In this document: positions 40,202 through 49,919 of the stretch, piece by piece
Layout: the number at the start of each line of letters is the position of its first letter
How positions within the stretch are numbered: the stretch's first letter is position 1
NCBI RefSeq assembly: GCF_016924655.1
Contig: NZ_JAFFJU010000002.1
Location: 992,001-1,056,000 of the forward strand
Length of the DNA: 64,000 nucleotides
Source: Sphingomonas arenae
GTDB lineage: Bacteria > Pseudomonadota > Alphaproteobacteria > Sphingomonadales > Sphingomonadaceae
Direction of reading: 5' to 3'
Notes under the pieces: model-generated
The model's database searches: none
Told to the model about the DNA's origin: nothing
The model's input: the letters and a program-made list of their open reading frames with translations, nothing else
Translations under genes and position numbers: made by a program

Positions 40202-41484
40202 AACTGCGCGCCACCCCCGGCGGTCCGATCACCGGCCGCTTCGCCGTCCCCGGCGACAAGTCCGTCTCACACCGGGCGCTGATCCTCGGTGGCCTGGCCG
40301 AGGGTGAGACCGTCATCTCCGGCCTGCTCGAAAGCGAGGACGTGCTCGCCACCGCCGCCGCGGTCCGCGCCTTCGGTCCGCGCGTGGAGCGGTTCGGCCC
40401 GGGCCGATGGCGGGTCATCGGCGCTCCGTGGCGCTCTCCGCAAGCGCCGATCGACTGCGGCAACAGCGGCACGTCCGCCCGCCTCCTGATGGGCGCGGCC
40501 GCCGCCCACGACCTCACCGCCACCTTCACAGGCGACGCCTCGCTGAGCCGCCGCCCGATGCATCGCGTCCGCGCTCCGCTCGAGGCCATGGGCGTCCGCT
40601 TCGAAGGCGGCGACACCCTGCCGCTCACCCTGCACGGCCCTGTCGCCACCGGCATCAACCATGTGAACACGCCCGCCTCCGCGCAGGTGAAGTCCGCCGT
40701 CCTCCTCGCGGGCCTCGGCACCGACCAGCCCGTCACCGTCGCCGAGCCGATCCCCAGCCGCGACCATACCGAAATCATGCTCCGCCACTTCGGCGCGGAG
40801 GTGGAGAGCGACGGCCGACTGACCCGCCTCGCCGCGCGCCGCACCCTCACCGCGCAGCTTGTGGTGGTCCCCGGCGACCCGTCCTCCGCCGCTTTCGCCT
40901 GGGCGGCTGCGGCCATCGTCCCCGGCTCCGAAGTGACCACCGAAGGCGTGCTCCTCAACCCCTTGCGCTCCGGCTTCATCATGGCGCTGCAGCGCCTGGG
41001 CGCCGACGTCCGCCTCGACAATGTCCGCGGTGCGCAGGGCGAAACGATCGGCGACGTCCGGGTCCGCTACGGCCCGGTCTTCGGAGCCGAGTTCACGGCC
41101 GAGGAAATCCCCTCCATGATCGACGAGATTCCGATCCTGGCCGCAGTCGCCGCTTTCGCGCGCGGCGAAACTCGCATCGAGGGCCTCGACGAACTGCGGC
41201 ACAAGGAAAGCGACCGTCTCGCCCTCATGGCGGAAGGCCTGACCGCCTGCGGAGTCGACGCTCGAGCGGAGGGCGACGCCCTCGTGATCCATGGCCGCGC
41301 GGTGAGCGGCGGCGCCACGGTGGAAACCCAGGGCGACCACCGCATCGCCATGGCGCACCTCATCCTCGGCCTCGCCGCCCAGCAGCCGGTGGAGGTCGAA
41401 GAGGCGGAGATGATCGCCACCAGCTTTCCTACCTTCCGCGAGGCCATGCGACGCATTGGTGCCGGGATCGAGGAGGTCGCATGA
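40198..41484 (+). CDS. aroA: 3-phosphoshikimate 1-carboxyvinyltransferase (EPSP synthase), probable CTG start
   Basis: Adds enolpyruvyl from PEP to shikimate 3-phosphate. The frame contains [16 protein letters not shown] (substrate-binding Lys/Ser/Arg), [37 protein letters not shown], the catalytic Asp-Glu in [10 protein letters not shown], and ELRHKESDR. The first ATG/GTG/TTG codon (GTG 40342) would delete the PGDKSVSHR motif. Upstream to the in-frame stop at 40150 only CTG codons could serve; CTG 40198 overlaps the preceding stop (CTGA) and gives 428 residues, normal for AroA. Function is firm; the start is inferred. Confidence 0.95.
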
Positions 41485-42392
41485 GCTGGAACAGCTTCGG
41501 CCGAGTGCTGCGCTTCACCACCTGGGGCGAGAGCCACGGTCCCGCCATCGGCGCGGTGGTCGACGGCTGCCCGCCCGGCCTGCCCATCGACGAACCCTCC
41601 ATCCAGCGCTGGCTCGACCAGCGCCGCCCGGGCACCTCGCGCAACGTCTCCCCCCGGCAGGAGCCCGACCGCGTCCGCATTCTCTCCGGAACGTATGAGG
41701 GCCGCACCACCGGCACGCCGATCAGCCTCCTGATCGAAAACGTCGACGCCCGCTCCAAGGATTATGCCGGCCTCCCGCCACGCCCCGGCCACGCCGACGC
41801 CGCCTACGAGTTCAAGTACGGCCTGCGCGACCCCCGCGGAGGTGGGCGCGCCTCCGCCCGCGAAACCGCCGCGCGCGTCGCCGCCGGCGCCGTGGCCCGG
41901 CTCGTCATTCCGGAAGTGACGATCGAAGCCCGGGTCGCCGAAATCGGCGGTGAGCCCGATCCCCAGCGCTGGGACGACCTCCTCGACACCGCTCGCTCCA
42001 ACAGCGACAGCCTCGGCGCGATCATCGAATGCGTCGCCACCGGCGTCCCTGCCGGCTGGGGCGCGCCGGTCTATGCCAAGCTCGACGCCGACCTCGCGGC
42101 CGCCGCCATGGGCATCAACGCGGTCAAGGCCGTGGAGATCGGCGAGGGCTTCGCCGCAGGGCGCGCGCACGGCCGCGAGAGCCTCGAGGCCATGAAATCC
42201 AGCGGCATCGACGGCGGCATCTCCACCGGCCAGCCGATCCGCCTCCGCGTCGCCTTCAAGCCGACGTCCAGCATCGGCATCGGCGGCCGGCACGACCCCT
42301 GCGTCGGCATCCGCGGCGCGCCCGTGGTCGAAGCGATGGTCGCGCTGGTGCTCGCCGACCACAAGCTGCTGCACCGCGCCCAGTGCGGGTGA
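41481..42392 (+). CDS. aroC: Chorismate synthase, unusually short
   Basis: FMN-dependent anti-1,4-elimination of EPSP to chorismate. The 303-residue protein opens [19 protein letters not shown] and has [82 protein letters not shown] and [18 protein letters not shown]. Typical members have about 350-360 residues; here loops after VAEIGGE, after [10 protein letters not shown] and after PTSSI appear shortened. All signature segments survive, so I expect activity. It ends the superoperon, 10 bp before a palindromic repeat. Confidence 0.95.
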
Positions 42393-44265: not shown

Positions 44266-45351
44266 TTAATCCGCGCTGATCACTCCCCGCCGGATCTGGT
44301 CCAGCTCGATGCTCTCGAACAGCGCCTTGAAGTTCCCTTCGCCGAAGCCCTCGTTCCCCTTGCGCTGGATCAGCTCGTAGAAGATCGGCCCGATCACGTT
44401 CTGGGTGAAGATCTGCAGCAGCAGGCCCTGCCCTTCGGTCGGCGCGCCATCGACCAGGATGCGCCGCTTCTTCAACTCCTCTAGCGGCTCGCCATGGCCC
44501 TTCACCCGGTCGTCGAGCAGGTCGTAATAGGTCTCGATCGTGTCCTGGAACGGAATGCCGCGGGACGAGAGGATATCCACGCTCTGGTAGATGTTGTCGG
44601 TGCCGAGCGCGATGTGCTGGATGCCCTCGCCCTTATACTCGCGCAGGAACTCCTCGATCTGGCTCTTGTCGTCCTGGCTCTCGTTGAGCGGAATGCGGAT
44701 CTTGCCGCACGGGCTCGTCATCGCCTTGGAGAACAGGCCGGTGACCTTGCCCTCGATGTCGAAGTAGCGGATCTCGCGGAAGTTGAAGAGCCGCTCGTAG
44801 AACTCCGCCCAAACCGCCATGCGCCCGCGATGGACGTTGTGCGTCAGGTGGTCGAGATAGGTGAGGTGCGCGTCGGCCGCCCGCATCCGCTCCTGCCAGT
44901 CCGGCTCGAACTCCCAGTCGCCCTCATAGGCCGACCCGGCGTCCCCGTAGCGGTCGACGAGGTACAGCAGCGATCCGCCGATCCCCTCGATCGCCGGCCA
45001 GCCGAGCCCGCGCGCCGTCACGTCCGTCGCCCCAAGCTCCAGCGCCCGGGCATGGGCGGCGGCCGCATCCTTGACCCGGAAGGCCATGGCGACCGCAGAC
45101 GGACCGTGCTCCGATGCGAAGTCGGCGGCGTGGCTCTCGTCGTGCGCATTGATCAGGAAGTTGATGTCGCCCTGCCGGTGCAGGGTGATGTTCTGGCGCT
45201 TGTGGCGGGCGATTGCCGGGAAGCCCAGCTTCATGAACAGCGACCGAAGCAGCTCCGGATCGGGCGCGGCATATTCGACGAATTCGAAGCCGTCGGTGCC
45301 CATCGGGTTCTCGAGGCCGAGCGGGCTCAACTCAGCAGTGGCGGTGGCCAT
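44266..45351 (-). CDS. hppD: 4-hydroxyphenylpyruvate dioxygenase
   Basis: Non-haem iron enzyme converting 4-hydroxyphenylpyruvate to homogentisate in tyrosine breakdown. The 361-residue protein (ATG 45351, preceded by AAAGGAG) shows the two vicinal-oxygen-chelate halves; iron ligands are expected in YLDHLTHNVHRG, GIQHIALGT and the C-terminal strand. Other typical blocks are RYFDIEGKVTGLFSKAM, QDDKSQIEEFLREY and EGQGLLLQIFTQNVIGPIFYELIQRKGNEGFGEGNF. It is divergent from phhB, matching a tyrosine/phenylalanine catabolic neighbourhood. Confidence 0.97.
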   Translation of the reverse strand: MATATAELSPLGLENPMGTDGFEFVEYAAPDPELLRSLFMKLGFPAIARHKRQNITLHRQGDINFLINAHDESHAADFASEHGPSAVAMAFRVKDAAAAHARALELGATDVTARGLGWPAIEGIGGSLLYLVDRYGDAGSAYEGDWEFEPDWQERMRAADAHLTYLDHLTHNVHRGRMAVWAEFYERLFNFREIRYFDIEGKVTGLFSKAMTSPCGKIRIPLNESQDDKSQIEEFLREYKGEGIQHIALGTDNIYQSVDILSSRGIPFQDTIETYYDLLDDRVKGHGEPLEELKKRRILVDGAPTEGQGLLLQIFTQNVIGPIFYELIQRKGNEGFGEGNFKALFESIELDQIRRGVISAD

Positions 45352-45444: not shown

Positions 45445-45690
45445 ATGACGGCACCCGATGGCTGGGAATTGCGTGGCAACGCACTGGTGAAGAGCTTCCG
45501 CTTCCCCGACTTCTCGGCCGCTTTCGCCTTCCTCACGCGCGTGGCGCTTCATGCGGAAAAGGTTGACCACCATCCCGAATTCACGAGTATCTGGAACCGG
45601 GTGGACTTCCGCCTCACCACGCACGACGTCGGCGGTGTGACCGCCCGGGACGTGGAGCTGGCCCGGGCCATCGACAGCCTTGCGGGCTAG
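45445..45690 (+). CDS. phhB: Pterin-4a-carbinolamine dehydratase
   Basis: Recycles the hydroxylated pterin cofactor of phenylalanine hydroxylase. The 81-residue protein has the family core LVKSFRFPDFSAAFAFLTRVALHAEKVDHHPEF (shown here in part; the catalytic His pair is KVDHHPEF) and WNRVDFRLTTHDVGGVTARD. It is slightly short at the N-terminus compared with about 95-115 residues in other bacteria. ATG 45445 directly follows GAGAAGGAGG, an ideal ribosome-binding site at rather short spacing. phhA lies 2.8 kb downstream in the same direction. Confidence 0.93.
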   Translation: MTAPDGWELRGNALVKSFRFPDFSAAFAFLTRVALHAEKVDHHPEFTSIWNRVDFRLTTHDVGGVTARDVELARAIDSLAG

Positions 45691-46011: not shown

Positions 46012-48300
46012 ATGACGCACGAGTTCGAGCCTCCCGGCGGCGGCCGGTCCGTAGCGCGCCATCTGGTGCTGTTCGGCGCCGCCTTGGCCTTGCCCGTCCT
46101 GATCCTGGTCGCGATCCTCACCTGGCATGGCGCAACCGAAGAACGGGCCCGCACGGCCACGCAGGTGGAGGAGGTCGCCGCCTCCGCCGTCGCCGCGCTC
46201 GACCGTGAGATGGTCGCATACCAGTCGATGCTGACCGCCCTGACCACGTCGCCCAGCCTCGAAGCCGGCGACCTGCGGATCTTCCACGAACGCGCACGCC
46301 GGCTGGCGCTCCAGGAAGGGATCGTGATCTCCCTGCGCACGCGCGACGGTCGCCAGGTCCTGCGCTCCGACACGCGCTTCGGAACGCCGCTGCCGCGCAA
46401 ATCGCTCCCCATCGATCGGTTCGTGATCGCCGAGCGCAAGCCCGGGGTCGGCGACCTCGAGCTCCGGCAAGGCAAGGCCTTCTTCTCCGTGGTCGTGCCG
46501 GAGGTGCAGGACGGCCGGACCGCCTACCTCCTCACCGCCACGGTGCCGGGGGAAGAGGCGCTGCGGGCACTGTCCGGCGTGATCCCGTCGAACTTCTGGG
46601 CCGGCTCCTACTCCGACCGCAACGAGCGGATCGTGGTGCGCACCCGCGACAATGCTGCCTGGGTCGGACGGCCACTCACCCCGGCGCTGCGGGAGGCTGC
46701 CCAGGGCCGCGACCGGGGCACCTGGGAAGGGCCGAGTCACGAGGGACGCGGCATTCTGGGGGGCTTTGCCCGCTCGAGCGTGACCGGCTGGCTCGCGGCC
46801 GTGGGCGTGGAGCGCCGGCAGCTGGCCGCGCCCGCCCGCGATTCGATGAACCTCGTGACGGTCGCCGCCATCCTCCTCGCGCTCAGCTCCAGCCTGCTCG
46901 CGCTCCTGTTCGCCCGCACCATCGTCGGCCCGCTGAGCGATCTCGCCGGCCGCGCCCGTGACCTAGCCGAGGGCCGACCCGTGAAGCCGCTTCAGTCGGG
47001 CCTGCGCGAAATCGACGCCGTCAGTGCCGCGCTGGTCGGCGCCGCGACCGCCCTCGACGAGCGCGACACGGAGCGCCGCGAGTTGCTCACCCGGCTCGAG
47101 ACGGGCAATGCGAGCCTCGAGCTGGAGGTCGAACGCCGCGCCAAGGAAGCGGAAGAAGCGCTCGCCCTCCTGTTCCAGTCGCAGAAGATGGAGAGCCTTG
47201 GGCGGCTGACCGGCGGCGTCGCGCACGACTTCAACAACCTCCTCACCCCCATCGTCTCCTGCCTCGACCTGCTGCGCCGCCACCACGACGATCCGCGAAG
47301 CGCCCGGCTGATCGACGGCGCGATGGCCTCGGCGGAGCGCGCCGCCGCGCTGGTGAAGCACCTCCTCGCCTTCGCCCGGCGCCAGTCGCTCAACCCGCGC
47401 CCGACCCAGCCCGCCCAGCTGGTGGAGAGCATGGGCGACCTCATCGAGCGCAGCCTAGGCGCCGGCATCGACGTCCACTTCGACGTGCCGCACAACCTCC
47501 CCGCCGCGCTGGTCGACCCGAACCAGCTCGAACTCGCGCTCCTCAACCTGTCCGTGAACGCTCGCGACGCCATGCCCAACGGCGGCAGCCTGACCGTGGT
47601 CGCCCGCGAAGTGCCCGTCGACGCGGGCGAAGTGCCCGGCCTCACCCCCGGCCGCTACATCCGCTTCCGCATCAAGGACACCGGCATGGGCATGGACGAG
47701 GAGACCCTCCGCCGCGCCCACGAACCCTTCTTCACAACCAAGGACGTCGGCCAGGGCACGGGCCTCGGCCTGTCCATGGTGCACGGCCTGGCCGCCCAGT
47801 CCGGCGGCGCTTTCCAGCTGCGCAGCAAGCCGGGCCTGGGCACCACCGCCTTTCTCTGGCTGCCTGCCGTCCAGGACGAGGGAGTTGCACCCATGGTCAC
47901 CCTCGAGGCGCCGGCACAGGCGCCCTGCGATGCCACCATCCTGCTGGTCGATGACGATGCCCGCGTCCGCACCGCCGCGGCGGAAGAGCTTCGCGAGCTC
48001 GGCTACACGGTGGTAGAAGCAGGCTCCGCGGAGCAGGCCCTCGGTCTCGTCCGCGACGGGGGCGGCTTCGACGTCCTGATCACGGACCAGGTGATGCCCG
48101 GCATGACCGGCACCGAGCTGGTGGAGGAAGCGCGGAAGCTCCAGCCCGACCTGCCCGTGCTGCTCGTCACCGGCTTCACCGATCTCGATCCCGGTGAGGA
48201 CGTCCGCCTCCTCACCAAGCCCTTCCGCCATGCCGAGCTGGCCGCCGCCGTCGCCAGCCTCCTGCCGGCCTCGCCAACGCCATCTGGCGTTCAGCCATGA
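46012..48300 (+). CDS. Hybrid sensor histidine kinase with periplasmic sensor domain
   Basis: About 762 residues: a first helix (VLFGAALALPVLILVAILTW), a periplasmic region of about 240 residues resembling a dCache/CHASE-type sensor, a second helix (VTVAAILLALSSSLLALLFARTI), HAMP, coiled coil, the H-box GGVAHDFNNLLTPIVSCLDL, the ATPase domain (NLSVNARDAMP, DTGMGMD, GTGLGLSMVHG) and a C-terminal receiver with LLVDDDARVR and the Asp in LITDQVMPGM. The HDFNN form places it in the HWE/HisKA group common in sphingomonads. The signal sensed is unknown. GTG 45994 is an alternative start. Confidence 0.92.
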   Translation: MTHEFEPPGGGRSVARHLVLFGAALALPVLILVAILTWHGATEERARTATQVEEVAASAVAALDREMVAYQSMLTALTTSPSLEAGDLRIFHERARRLALQEGIVISLRTRDGRQVLRSDTRFGTPLPRKSLPIDRFVIAERKPGVGDLELRQGKAFFSVVVPEVQDGRTAYLLTATVPGEEALRALSGVIPSNFWAGSYSDRNERIVVRTRDNAAWVGRPLTPALREAAQGRDRGTWEGPSHEGRGILGGFARSSVTGWLAAVGVERRQLAAPARDSMNLVTVAAILLALSSSLLALLFARTIVGPLSDLAGRARDLAEGRPVKPLQSGLREIDAVSAALVGAATALDERDTERRELLTRLETGNASLELEVERRAKEAEEALALLFQSQKMESLGRLTGGVAHDFNNLLTPIVSCLDLLRRHHDDPRSARLIDGAMASAERAAALVKHLLAFARRQSLNPRPTQPAQLVESMGDLIERSLGAGIDVHFDVPHNLPAALVDPNQLELALLNLSVNARDAMPNGGSLTVVAREVPVDAGEVPGLTPGRYIRFRIKDTGMGMDEETLRRAHEPFFTTKDVGQGTGLGLSMVHGLAAQSGGAFQLRSKPGLGTTAFLWLPAVQDEGVAPMVTLEAPAQAPCDATILLVDDDARVRTAAAEELRELGYTVVEAGSAEQALGLVRDGGGFDVLITDQVMPGMTGTELVEEARKLQPDLPVLLVTGFTDLDPGEDVRLLTKPFRHAELAAAVASLLPASPTPSGVQP

Positions 48301-48319
48301 TCCCGGATAAGCTCACCCC

Positions 48320-48379
48320 ATGACGCACGCCGTTCCTGCCGCCAGCTATTATTATCCGCACGAGGTGGGGACCGGCTGA
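48320..48379 (+). CDS. Putative tyrosine leader peptide of phhA
   Basis: A 19-codon ORF: MTHAVPAASYYYPHEVGTG. Three consecutive Tyr codons (48347-48355), all TAT, stand out in this GC-rich genome. It lies between the kinase stop and an intrinsic terminator ahead of phhA. There is no Shine-Dalgarno; a -10-like GATAAG at 48306-48311 would start transcription at or beside the ATG, giving a leaderless mRNA like the trp leader here. I read it as a tyrosine-sensing attenuation peptide; this is inference from sequence. Confidence 0.72.
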   Translation: MTHAVPAASYYYPHEVGTG

Positions 48380-48407
48380 CGCGCGCCTGAAATCCGCGAC
48401 TTGCCCG

Positions 48408-48439
48408 CCCCGCCCGACACCCGTCCGGCGGGGTTTTTT
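48408..48439 (+). terminator. Putative attenuator upstream of phhA
   Basis: CCCCGCC (48408-48414) pairs with GGCGGGG (48427-48433), followed by six T. It ends 24 bp before the phhA ATG. GGTGGGG at 48364-48370, inside the leader ORF, can pair with the same CCCCGCC arm with one G-U, giving an antiterminator that a ribosome finishing the leader would cover. Confidence 0.82.
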
Positions 48440-48463
48440 GTGCCCTCAAGAAGGACCTTCCCG

Positions 48464-49234
48464 ATGTTCCAGAGTTTCGCCGAGCCCGCCTCCTCCGCTG
48501 TCTCCGGCTGGCGCACCCATGTGGTCGACCAGGGCTGGCACCGCTTCACCGATGAGGATCATGCCGTCTGGGACACGCTCTACGCCCGCCAGGTTGCACT
48601 GCTGCAGGACCGGATCGTCACCCCTTTCCTCGACGGCCTCGACCTGCTCGACCTCGGCGCCCCCGGAGTGCCGGAGCTTGGCCGACTCAACGCCCGGCTG
48701 AAGGCGCGCACCGGCTGGCGCACGGTTGCGGTCCCGGGCCTCGTCCCTGACGAAGCCTTCTTCGCCATGCTCAGCCAGCGGCTCTTTCCCATCGGCAACT
48801 TCATCCGCACCCGCGCCCAGCTCGACTATCTGGAAGAGCCCGACTGCTTCCACGACATCTTCGGTCACGTGCCGATGCTCGCCCACCCGGGCATGGCGCA
48901 GGCCATTCAGCATGTCGGCCGGCTCGGGCTCCAGGCCATCGCTGCCGGGCACGGCGACTGGGTCGCGCGGCTCTACTGGCACACGGTCGAATTCAGCCTC
49001 TGCCGCGAGGGCGATGCGATCCGCATCTTCGGCGCAGGGCTCGCCTCCAGCTTCGGCGAAGCCCGGATCAGCCTGGAGGACCCGACCATCGCCCGTCCCC
49101 GGTTCAGCGTCGGGGAGGCCACCGCCACCCCCTACCGCCACGACGCGATGCAGCCGCTCTACTTCGTCGCGGACAGCGTCGATGCCGTGGTCGACGCCAT
49201 CCTCACCGCCGAGGTGCCACGCCCATCTCGCTGA
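48464..49234 (+). CDS. phhA: Phenylalanine 4-hydroxylase
   Basis: Pterin- and iron-dependent enzyme converting phenylalanine to tyrosine. The 256-residue bacterial-length protein has the iron ligands in DCFHDIFGHVPML (His, His) and WHTVEFSLC (Glu), with FPIGNFIRTRAQLDYLEEPD before them and the C-terminal FGAGLASSFGEA. ATG 48464 follows AAGGACC. With PhhB and HPPD nearby it forms the phenylalanine-tyrosine-homogentisate route. It is preceded by a leader peptide rich in Tyr codons and a terminator, so the product amino acid probably controls expression. Overlaps the convergent hydrolase by 32 bp. Confidence 0.96.
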   Translation: MFQSFAEPASSAVSGWRTHVVDQGWHRFTDEDHAVWDTLYARQVALLQDRIVTPFLDGLDLLDLGAPGVPELGRLNARLKARTGWRTVAVPGLVPDEAFFAMLSQRLFPIGNFIRTRAQLDYLEEPDCFHDIFGHVPMLAHPGMAQAIQHVGRLGLQAIAAGHGDWVARLYWHTVEFSLCREGDAIRIFGAGLASSFGEARISLEDPTIARPRFSVGEATATPYRHDAMQPLYFVADSVDAVVDAILTAEVPRPSR

Positions 49235-49919
49235 GGAAGCGCTCGGTCTCCTCGACCACCCGGCGCGTGGCGGTGAAGCCGACCGCGAAGTCCATGTGGC
49301 AGCAGGTCAGCTCCACTGCCCGGTCGCTCTCCTCCGGCAGGCCGTAGGCCGATCGCGGGGCGACGATTCCGTCCCCCCGCGACCACAGGGCGAGCGTCGG
49401 CACGGGCGGCTTGCTGTGCTCGCGCATGACCGGCGGCTGATCGACCTTGTGGCCCGCCACCCACTCGTAGAGCCGCCAGACGTTGTTCCAGTGCGGATCG
49501 CCGGAGAACGGTGCGCCGCAGGTCACCACCGCAAGCGCATGGTCCGGCACCTCCCGCGCCAGTTCGCGGGCGAACACGCCGCCCAGGCTCCACCCGACCA
49601 GCAGCACCTTCTCCCCCTGCCCGAAGGCGTCGAACCGCTCGCGGAGCCGCTGGATCGTGTCGGCCTTGGCCCCCGTGTTGAGCCCCTGCTGCCAGCCTTC
49701 CACCCGCCAGCCCGCGACGGCAAAGGCCTGCCGCAGCTGCGTGGTGGAACGGTCGCTGGCGAGGAAGCCGGGCAGGACCAGGCACTTGGGCCCGTCCGCC
49801 GGACCGAGCGGCACCACCGGCGCCAGGCTCTTCCACGCGCGCGGAAGAAAGGCCGCAACCTCCCGCAGCCGGGCACTGTGCGGGGGTGGCTCCTCGTCAC
49901 GCCGGCCTTGATCCGGCAT
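49203..49919 (-). CDS. Alpha/beta hydrolase
   Basis: A protein of about 238 residues. The nucleophile elbow is VLLVGWSLGGVFARELA (GxSxG with Ser), the first strand with oxyanion region is CLVLPGFLASDRST, the acid is probably in LALWSRGDGIVAP, and the His in TCCHMDFAVG. It resembles esterase/lipase-like hydrolases of unknown substrate. Both possible ATG starts (49919 and 49937) lie inside a palindromic repeat, so the N-terminus may have been altered by repeat insertion. Its 3' end overlaps phhA. Confidence 0.82.
   Translation of the reverse strand: MPDQGRRDEEPPPHSARLREVAAFLPRAWKSLAPVVPLGPADGPKCLVLPGFLASDRSTTQLRQAFAVAGWRVEGWQQGLNTGAKADTIQRLRERFDAFGQGEKVLLVGWSLGGVFARELAREVPDHALAVVTCGAPFSGDPHWNNVWRLYEWVAGHKVDQPPVMREHSKPPVPTLALWSRGDGIVAPRSAYGLPEESDRAVELTCCHMDFAVGFTATRRVVEETERFLSEMGVAPRR

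Follow-up and report, generated by a model that had tools for sequence, protein, structure and literature searches.

The window, a 64,000-nucleotide stretch of the Sphingomonas arenae genome, carries a phenylalanine 4-hydroxylase gene, phhA, which is preceded by a short open reading frame (ORF) and an intrinsic terminator. The features considered here are listed below in window coordinates.

About 44269-45348: HPPD (PF14696 match)
45445-45690, plus strand: phhB, pterin-4a-carbinolamine dehydratase (PF01329, E 6.9e-28; the family query began at 45448, and the ATG at 45445 is taken from the ORF)
Ending at 48300: histidine-kinase gene, the upstream neighbor of the leader and phhA
48306-48311, plus strand: GATAAG, -10-like, 8 nt 5' of the leader ATG (sequence)
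48320-48379, plus strand: leader peptide ORF MTHAVPAASYYYPHEVGTG, 19 codons plus TGA at 48377-48379 (sequence, relatives)
48347-48355, plus strand: three adjacent Tyr codons, TAT TAT TAT (TATTATTAT), the proposed sensing codons (sequence, relatives)
48364-48370, plus strand: GGTGGGG, 5' arm of the alternative (antiterminator) stem, inside leader codons E-V-G (sequence, arm-swap, folding)
48408-48439, plus strand: intrinsic terminator, CCCCGCC..GGCGGGG plus TTTTTT (sequence, aligned leaders)
48408-48414, plus strand: CCCCGCC, terminator 5' arm, doubling in the window as 3' arm of the alternative stem (sequence, folding)
48427-48433, plus strand: GGCGGGG, terminator 3' arm (sequence)
48434-48439, plus strand: TTTTTT, T-tract of the terminator (sequence)
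48447-48455, plus strand: AAGAAGGAC, Shine-Dalgarno-like stretch of phhA (sequence)
48464-49234, plus strand: phhA, phenylalanine 4-hydroxylase, 256 amino acids plus stop, ATG at 48464 (PF00351, E 9.6e-41)

The 19-codon ORF, the Tyr codons, the terminator stem, GGTGGGG, GATAAG, and the phhA start all lie exactly where an earlier note, made from the sequence of the window, had placed them. The phhA gene is the single PF00351 match in this 2.76-Mb genome (completeness, 99.98%). Following family knowledge of PF00351 proteins, we take PhhA to make tyrosine, and the phhB product is presumably the recycler of the hydroxylase's cofactor. An Rfam scan of positions 47500 to 49500 returned nothing in the leader and two weak, unrelated matches elsewhere (E up to 5); no T-box riboswitch or other Rfam leader was recognized there.

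The leader ORF is probably leaderless, as judged from the sequence in front of it. Boxes resembling GATAAG, CATAGG, and GATAGG, together with an upstream element of the TTCAG type, are present in many of 66 relatives, a motif that is partly selected, as leaders with several ATGs were represented by whichever ATG had the most convincing -10-like box. The spacing between box and ATG is about equal in many relatives. The arrangement fits a start site expected within a few nucleotides of the leader ATG, which would make the ORF leaderless or nearly so.

To assess the conservation of the leader, we analyzed 71 genomes of the genus, 65 of which contain PhhA, at 69 places; 18 of the 71 genomes are below high quality, so single absences of a leader or gene may be gaps. 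A short ORF with one or more Tyr codons and a terminator soon after its stop precedes phhA at 66 of the 69 places. Two of the three places without a leader belong to G030 and the third to G012, both genomes with TyrA, and the leader is present in all 61 genus genomes that have phhA but no TyrA over the cut-off. Two genomes, G005 and G062, have two phhA copies each, every copy with its own leader; the two leaders of G005 are identical and those of G062 almost identical. A detector of leader-like arrangements (a short ORF with Y..Y, then a G-run and a T-tract) responded at 53 of 3,860 random positions, and this 1.4% is an upper figure, because leaders are among the loci that were sampled.

No codons of the leader are conserved better than those for Tyr. 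Within the last 15 codons, 33 of the 66 leaders have at least three adjacent Tyr codons, 21 have two, and 12 have none adjacent, so that 54 carry two or more in a row. In 43, 53, and 55 of 66 leaders, respectively, a Tyr codon aligns with positions 48347, 48350, and 48353. Leaders without adjacent Tyr codons contain, for example, YHY, YPY, YAYAY, or a single Y, and in the same 15 codons, the leader of G010 and the degenerate leader of G029 have one Tyr, and the degenerate leader of G024 has none. TAT is used 145 times and TAC 23 times in this portion of the 66 leaders; for comparison, the TAT/TAC counts are 1/4 in phhA, 0/5 in the kinase gene, and 5/7 in the HPPD gene of the window. In many relatives, the leader peptide ends in (Y)YYP.EVG.G, AVETG, or EAGT. 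immediately before the stop.

We searched for TyrA with PF02153, which was positive in 14 of 14 control genomes (13 of 14 in the family run), and with PF20463, positive in 12 of 14. Only 4 of the 71 genus genomes have PF02153 over the cut-off, with matches below it in 8 more, and PF20463 is over the cut-off in the same four. In the S. arenae genome, neither search gave a TyrA match, which probably leaves PhhA as the sole source of tyrosine there and strengthens the rationale of the earlier note. Prephenate dehydratase (PF00800) is present in 14 of 71 genomes, this one not among them, and 56 of 71 have neither PF02153 nor PF00800 over the cut-off; these would, like animals, derive their tyrosine from phenylalanine. 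The genus thus mostly seems to have lost the usual tyrosine-making gene, and many of its members should need outside phenylalanine, with PhhA making tyrosine. A PheC-type dehydratase was considered as a hidden route to phenylalanine in the S. arenae genome and dropped for want of a PF00497 match, although some other dehydratase may exist. A strict division of leaders by the presence of TyrA fails, as G016 keeps both; G012 and G061 have TyrA and a leader too (completeness, 86% and 70%; contamination, 4 to 5%). Three near-complete genomes, G028, G037, and G040, have neither TyrA over the cut-off nor PF00351 and are possible tyrosine auxotrophs.

Chorismate mutase is present in the S. arenae genome, and chorismate synthase is present in 48 of 71 genus genomes, this one included (about 41508-42368). 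Its chorismate synthase matches PF01264 end to end over 861 nt, compared with 1,005 nt in G016 and G069; the short form also occurs in several other members of the genus, and the enzyme is possibly reduced. Within 40342-42392 of the window, an EPSP-synthase-like ORF, named from reading its translation, ends near the chorismate synthase start. A chorismate synthase match is missing from the remaining 23 of 71 genomes, 12 of which are among the 53 of high quality. Among these 23, phhA with a Tyr leader is found in 20 (e.g., G003, G014, G019, G023, and G025), apparent aromatic auxotrophs that could still turn phenylalanine into tyrosine.

At the level of the family, 138 of 159 genomes drawn score over the PF02153 cut-off, and the other 21 are spread over ten genera. 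In one second genus, g40, the leader precedes both of two phhA genes, one of them with five Tyr codons running. Eight sampled genera (g7, g16, g47, g49, g50, g55, g60, and g75) have no PF02153 over the cut-off, and seven of them have phhA without the leader. The leader is absent before all 14 phhA genes of these seven TyrA-less genera, indicating that TyrA loss does not require it; we therefore rejected the proposition that every TyrA loss is accompanied by a leader. Of the 138 TyrA-positive family genomes, 67 were searched for PF00351, yielding 55 positives with 57 places, and the leader was not found at the 30 best-scoring phhA places of TyrA-positive family members. A strict detector was positive at 19 of 80 named loci, and at the 59 loci outside Sphingomonas and Sphingomicrobium the leader was not found. 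The named records that bear a leader are Sphingomonas and Sphingomicrobium, with Sphingomonas alba and S. daechungensis among them, and many are metagenome assemblies. Mapping the leader onto a tree of 112 PhhA proteins takes three changes, a pattern compatible with one gain and two losses.

Presence outside the genus was judged from the regions upstream of phhA instead of from our covariance model, R1. This model contains the terminator's pairs only, so its hits across the family resemble generic terminators once E is weaker than about 1e-6, and among the R1 matches listed, many cover the terminator end of the model alone. One R1 match of 32.5 bits (L158, G116:C4:199443-199545) lies in the TyrA-less genus g47, away from its phhA.

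A GC stem followed by a T-tract stands between leader and phhA in the 66 aligned leaders, with the C and G columns of the stem core invariant or nearly so. The T-tract pattern missed the terminators of 5 of the 66, which were given a fixed end. A generic terminator scan saw only the 5-bp version of the hairpin, with 1 found against 0.7 expected by chance per 2 kb, and is by itself uninformative. RNAalifold recovered the terminator as the sole structure of the 66 leaders, with little covariation, and its failure to return an alternative stem probably reflects a register that slides between groups.

We evaluated the alternative stem by pairing each leader's 5' arm with its own or with a swapped 3' arm. 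Because the shuffles ignore relatedness, all the following margins overstate independence: in 66 leaders, own arms reached -15.97 kcal/mol and swapped arms -13.19 (standard deviation [SD], 0.27; best of 5,000 shuffles, -14.23); with the 3' arm limited to -2 to +4 nt from the terminator, where stems of 5 to 10 bp were found, own arms scored 19.9 and swapped arms 14.0 in 61 leaders (SD, 0.59; best shuffle, 16.1), a difference of about ten SD; and pairing with the terminator's own 5' arm gave 12.75 against 12.38 (SD, 0.10; P = 0.0004). The limited-gap and terminator-arm tests, like the first stall-folding set below, comprised 61 of the 66 leaders, with G016, G024, G052, G053, and G069 dropped. 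The two arms change together among leaders, as in the types GAGGTTGG/CCAACCTC, GAGGCTGG/CCAGCCTC, GCGGTGG/CCACCGC, GCGATGG/CCATCGC, and CAGGTG/CACCTG. The residues encoded at the arm (EVG, EAG, AVE, or QVG) vary along with it, so that the constraint lies more on RNA than on peptide. The earlier note had held that its reading would fall if close relatives did not conserve the Tyr codons or the alternative stems; both points turned out in its favor, with the codons conserved among the leaders described above and the stem covarying in the arm-swap tests.

Predicted folding of the window leader behaves as a switch. With the front edge of a ribosome taken to lie 13 nt downstream of the A-site codon, edges at 48360 and 48363 correspond to stalls at Tyr codons 1 and 2. 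With no ribosome, the probability of the terminator is 1.0. It is 0.97, 0.97, 0.88, and 0.73 with the front edge at 48352, 48354, 48356, and 48358, respectively; falls to 0.34, 0.22, and 0.47 at 48360, 48362, and 48364; and returns to at least 0.99 from 48366 onward, a range that takes in Tyr codon 3 as well as the stop codon. Only stalls that place Tyr codon 1 or 2 in the A site bring the predicted probability below 0.5. The earlier proposal that a ribosome stalled at the Tyr codons frees the antiterminator thus holds by prediction for the first two codons, and a stall at the third would be of no help. The predicted folding also agrees with its proposal that GGTGGGG pairs with CCCCGCC and that this pairing is lost once the ribosome reaches the stop.

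An antiterminator overlapping the terminator, as the earlier note envisaged, is predicted in the window and in 31 other leaders, and not in the other 36 of 68. We counted a leader as overlapping when, in the most favorable of as many as three Tyr stalls, it was predicted to hold the 5' arm of the terminator before the partner arm was made. By group, this applies to 16 of 16 leaders in A, 2 of 2 in g40, 4 of 5 ungrouped, 8 of 22 in C and C2, 1 of 15 in B, and 1 of 8 in D. In the 36 leaders without predicted overlap, the covarying stem mostly abuts the terminator; in groups B and D, the conserved stem ends against it and both helices can form. Equilibrium folding of stalled leaders puts the terminator below 0.5 in 7 of 61 leaders, or in 9 of 68 when as many as three Tyr stalls are folded per leader and the most favorable is kept. 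We rejected equilibrium folding as general proof of the switch, as it works in the window and not in most relatives. The sensing part is general across the leaders, and the stem may prevent termination by kinetic overlap or, in the abutting forms, by something else that is perhaps steric.

These comparisons make it very likely that the leader controls phhA by ribosome-mediated transcription attenuation specific to tyrosine. Transcription would start just 5' of the leader ATG, and a ribosome would trail RNA polymerase along the 19 codons. When charged tRNA-Tyr is ample, the ribosome would proceed to the stop and cover GGTGGGG, allowing the CCCCGCC/GGCGGGG terminator to form. When tyrosine is short, it would stall at Tyr codon 1 or 2 and leave GGTGGGG free to pair with CCCCGCC before the other terminator arm exists, permitting read-through into phhA. 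The resulting hydroxylase would make tyrosine from phenylalanine, and with phhA off under ample tyrosine, phenylalanine would be spared. A tyrosine attenuator is well supported by comparison among leaders, and its response to tyrosine itself is a prediction. Leader translation, stalling, termination efficiency, the tyrosine response, and the biosynthetic role of PhhA are what we infer from the sequences.

A possible though doubtful variant retains the same sensing by Tyr stalls and differs in how the terminator is disarmed: in many relatives, a helix standing against the terminator base and sharing no bases with it would hinder it sterically, the proposed cause being that no free linker is left inside the RNA exit channel. 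The roughly ten-SD margin at gaps of -2 to +4 nt argues for this variant, as does the freer search, in which 40 of 66 leaders have their best stem within -2 to +3 nt of the terminator and 20 of 66 have it fully overlapping; abutting pairing is also more leader specific than overlap pairing. The predicted overlap in the window and 31 other leaders speaks against it, and in group A the abutting stem is barely above swapped arms (P = 0.026). Moreover, two adjoining helices are compatible in free RNA, and double-adjacent hairpins have been described as terminators (PMC8355165). We tentatively suggest that an abutting helix could block hairpin closure in the RNA polymerase exit channel and that this form may derive, in bacteria whose sole route to tyrosine starts from phenylalanine, from a classical overlapping tyrosine attenuator. 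The overlapping form persists, by prediction, in the window, the two g40 leaders, and those of G016, G052, G053, and G069.

The remaining explanations question the role of the enzyme or of the leader itself. PhhA could be catabolic here, with the leader tuning phenylalanine degradation and tyrosine supply acting as a brake; the HPPD match near phhA and the catabolic role described in Pseudomonas and Shewanella are in its favor, but we consider it unlikely given a genome without a TyrA match and the 20 chorismate-synthase-less genomes that keep phhA with its leader. It is improbable that the terminator is constitutive and that the translated short ORF acts in trans, through its peptide or the terminated RNA of about 120 nt. 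Trans action has been described for peTrpL, the attenuator leader peptide of Sinorhizobium (PMC7298713), but here the peptide C terminus varies together with the complementary RNA arm, which fits a cis role of the RNA, and Tyr codons are the most conserved. A chance ORF in front of an ordinary terminator could draw on the background of terminator-like sites expected in 2 kb, and it is scarcely credible when 66 of 69 places are set against the 1.4% detector rate and the arms covary. The preferred reading remains a tyrosine attenuator of phhA, and if it is true, it extends leader-peptide attenuation to a further sensed amino acid, tyrosine, and to a further target, phenylalanine hydroxylase. It would also provide sequence-level evidence that PhhA, usually treated as catabolic, is the tyrosine-making enzyme in most of a genus. 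The 68 diverged leaders, overlapping and abutting, form a natural series on how an upstream helix acts on a terminator.

Full-text searches of an open-access library on attenuators and leader peptides turned up no ribosome attenuator that responds to tyrosine. Proteobacterial attenuators were reportedly surveyed by Vitreschak et al. in 2004. The earlier note knew of no tyrosine attenuator for phhA, and the passages covered by our open-access searches likewise describe neither a phhA attenuator nor leader-peptide attenuation of a phenylalanine hydroxylase. Ribosome-mediated attenuators are listed for the trp, his, leu, thr, ilv, and pheA operons (PMC1183508), and the phhA leader resembles them in its short ORF, its repeated codons for the amino acid that the enzyme makes, its predicted alternative stem, its intrinsic terminator, and its probably biosynthetic target. 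It differs from them in that tyrosine is sensed, the target is a hydroxylase acting on phenylalanine, the leader ORF is probably leaderless, and 36 of 68 leaders have no predicted overlap between stem and terminator. The nearest case with Tyr codons appears to be the AroR leader of the aroF operon in Corynebacterium glutamicum, which contains Phe-Tyr-Phe and in which stalling raises expression of an aromatic amino acid gene (PMC11802643). Unlike the phhA leader, AroR is presented there as phenylalanine responsive with no tyrosine effect, its target is DAHP synthase, and it belongs to Actinobacteria (PMC11802643). Putative attenuators before tyrA operons, one of them alphaproteobacterial, are recorded in the Merino database as cited in PMC1173090; they likewise propose attenuation for tyrosine synthesis genes, but their target is tyrA, a gene not found here, the passages covered give no sensing mechanism for them, and phhA is not among the table rows examined in that compilation of putative attenuators. 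Control of phhA by PhhR or TyrR in Pseudomonas and Shewanella concerns the same enzyme gene and is described as relying on a DNA-binding regulator (with a sigma-54 promoter in Pseudomonas aeruginosa) and serving a catabolic role. Bacterial PhhA as a tyrosine route in the absence of TyrA is indicated by mutant fitness in Dyella and proposed in Legionella, the same route as proposed here, with no attenuator mentioned in the relevant passages (PMC7311316). Set against these systems, ribosome-mediated attenuation itself is known, and the novelty, within the literature covered, would lie in sensing tyrosine and in acting on a phenylalanine hydroxylase gene.
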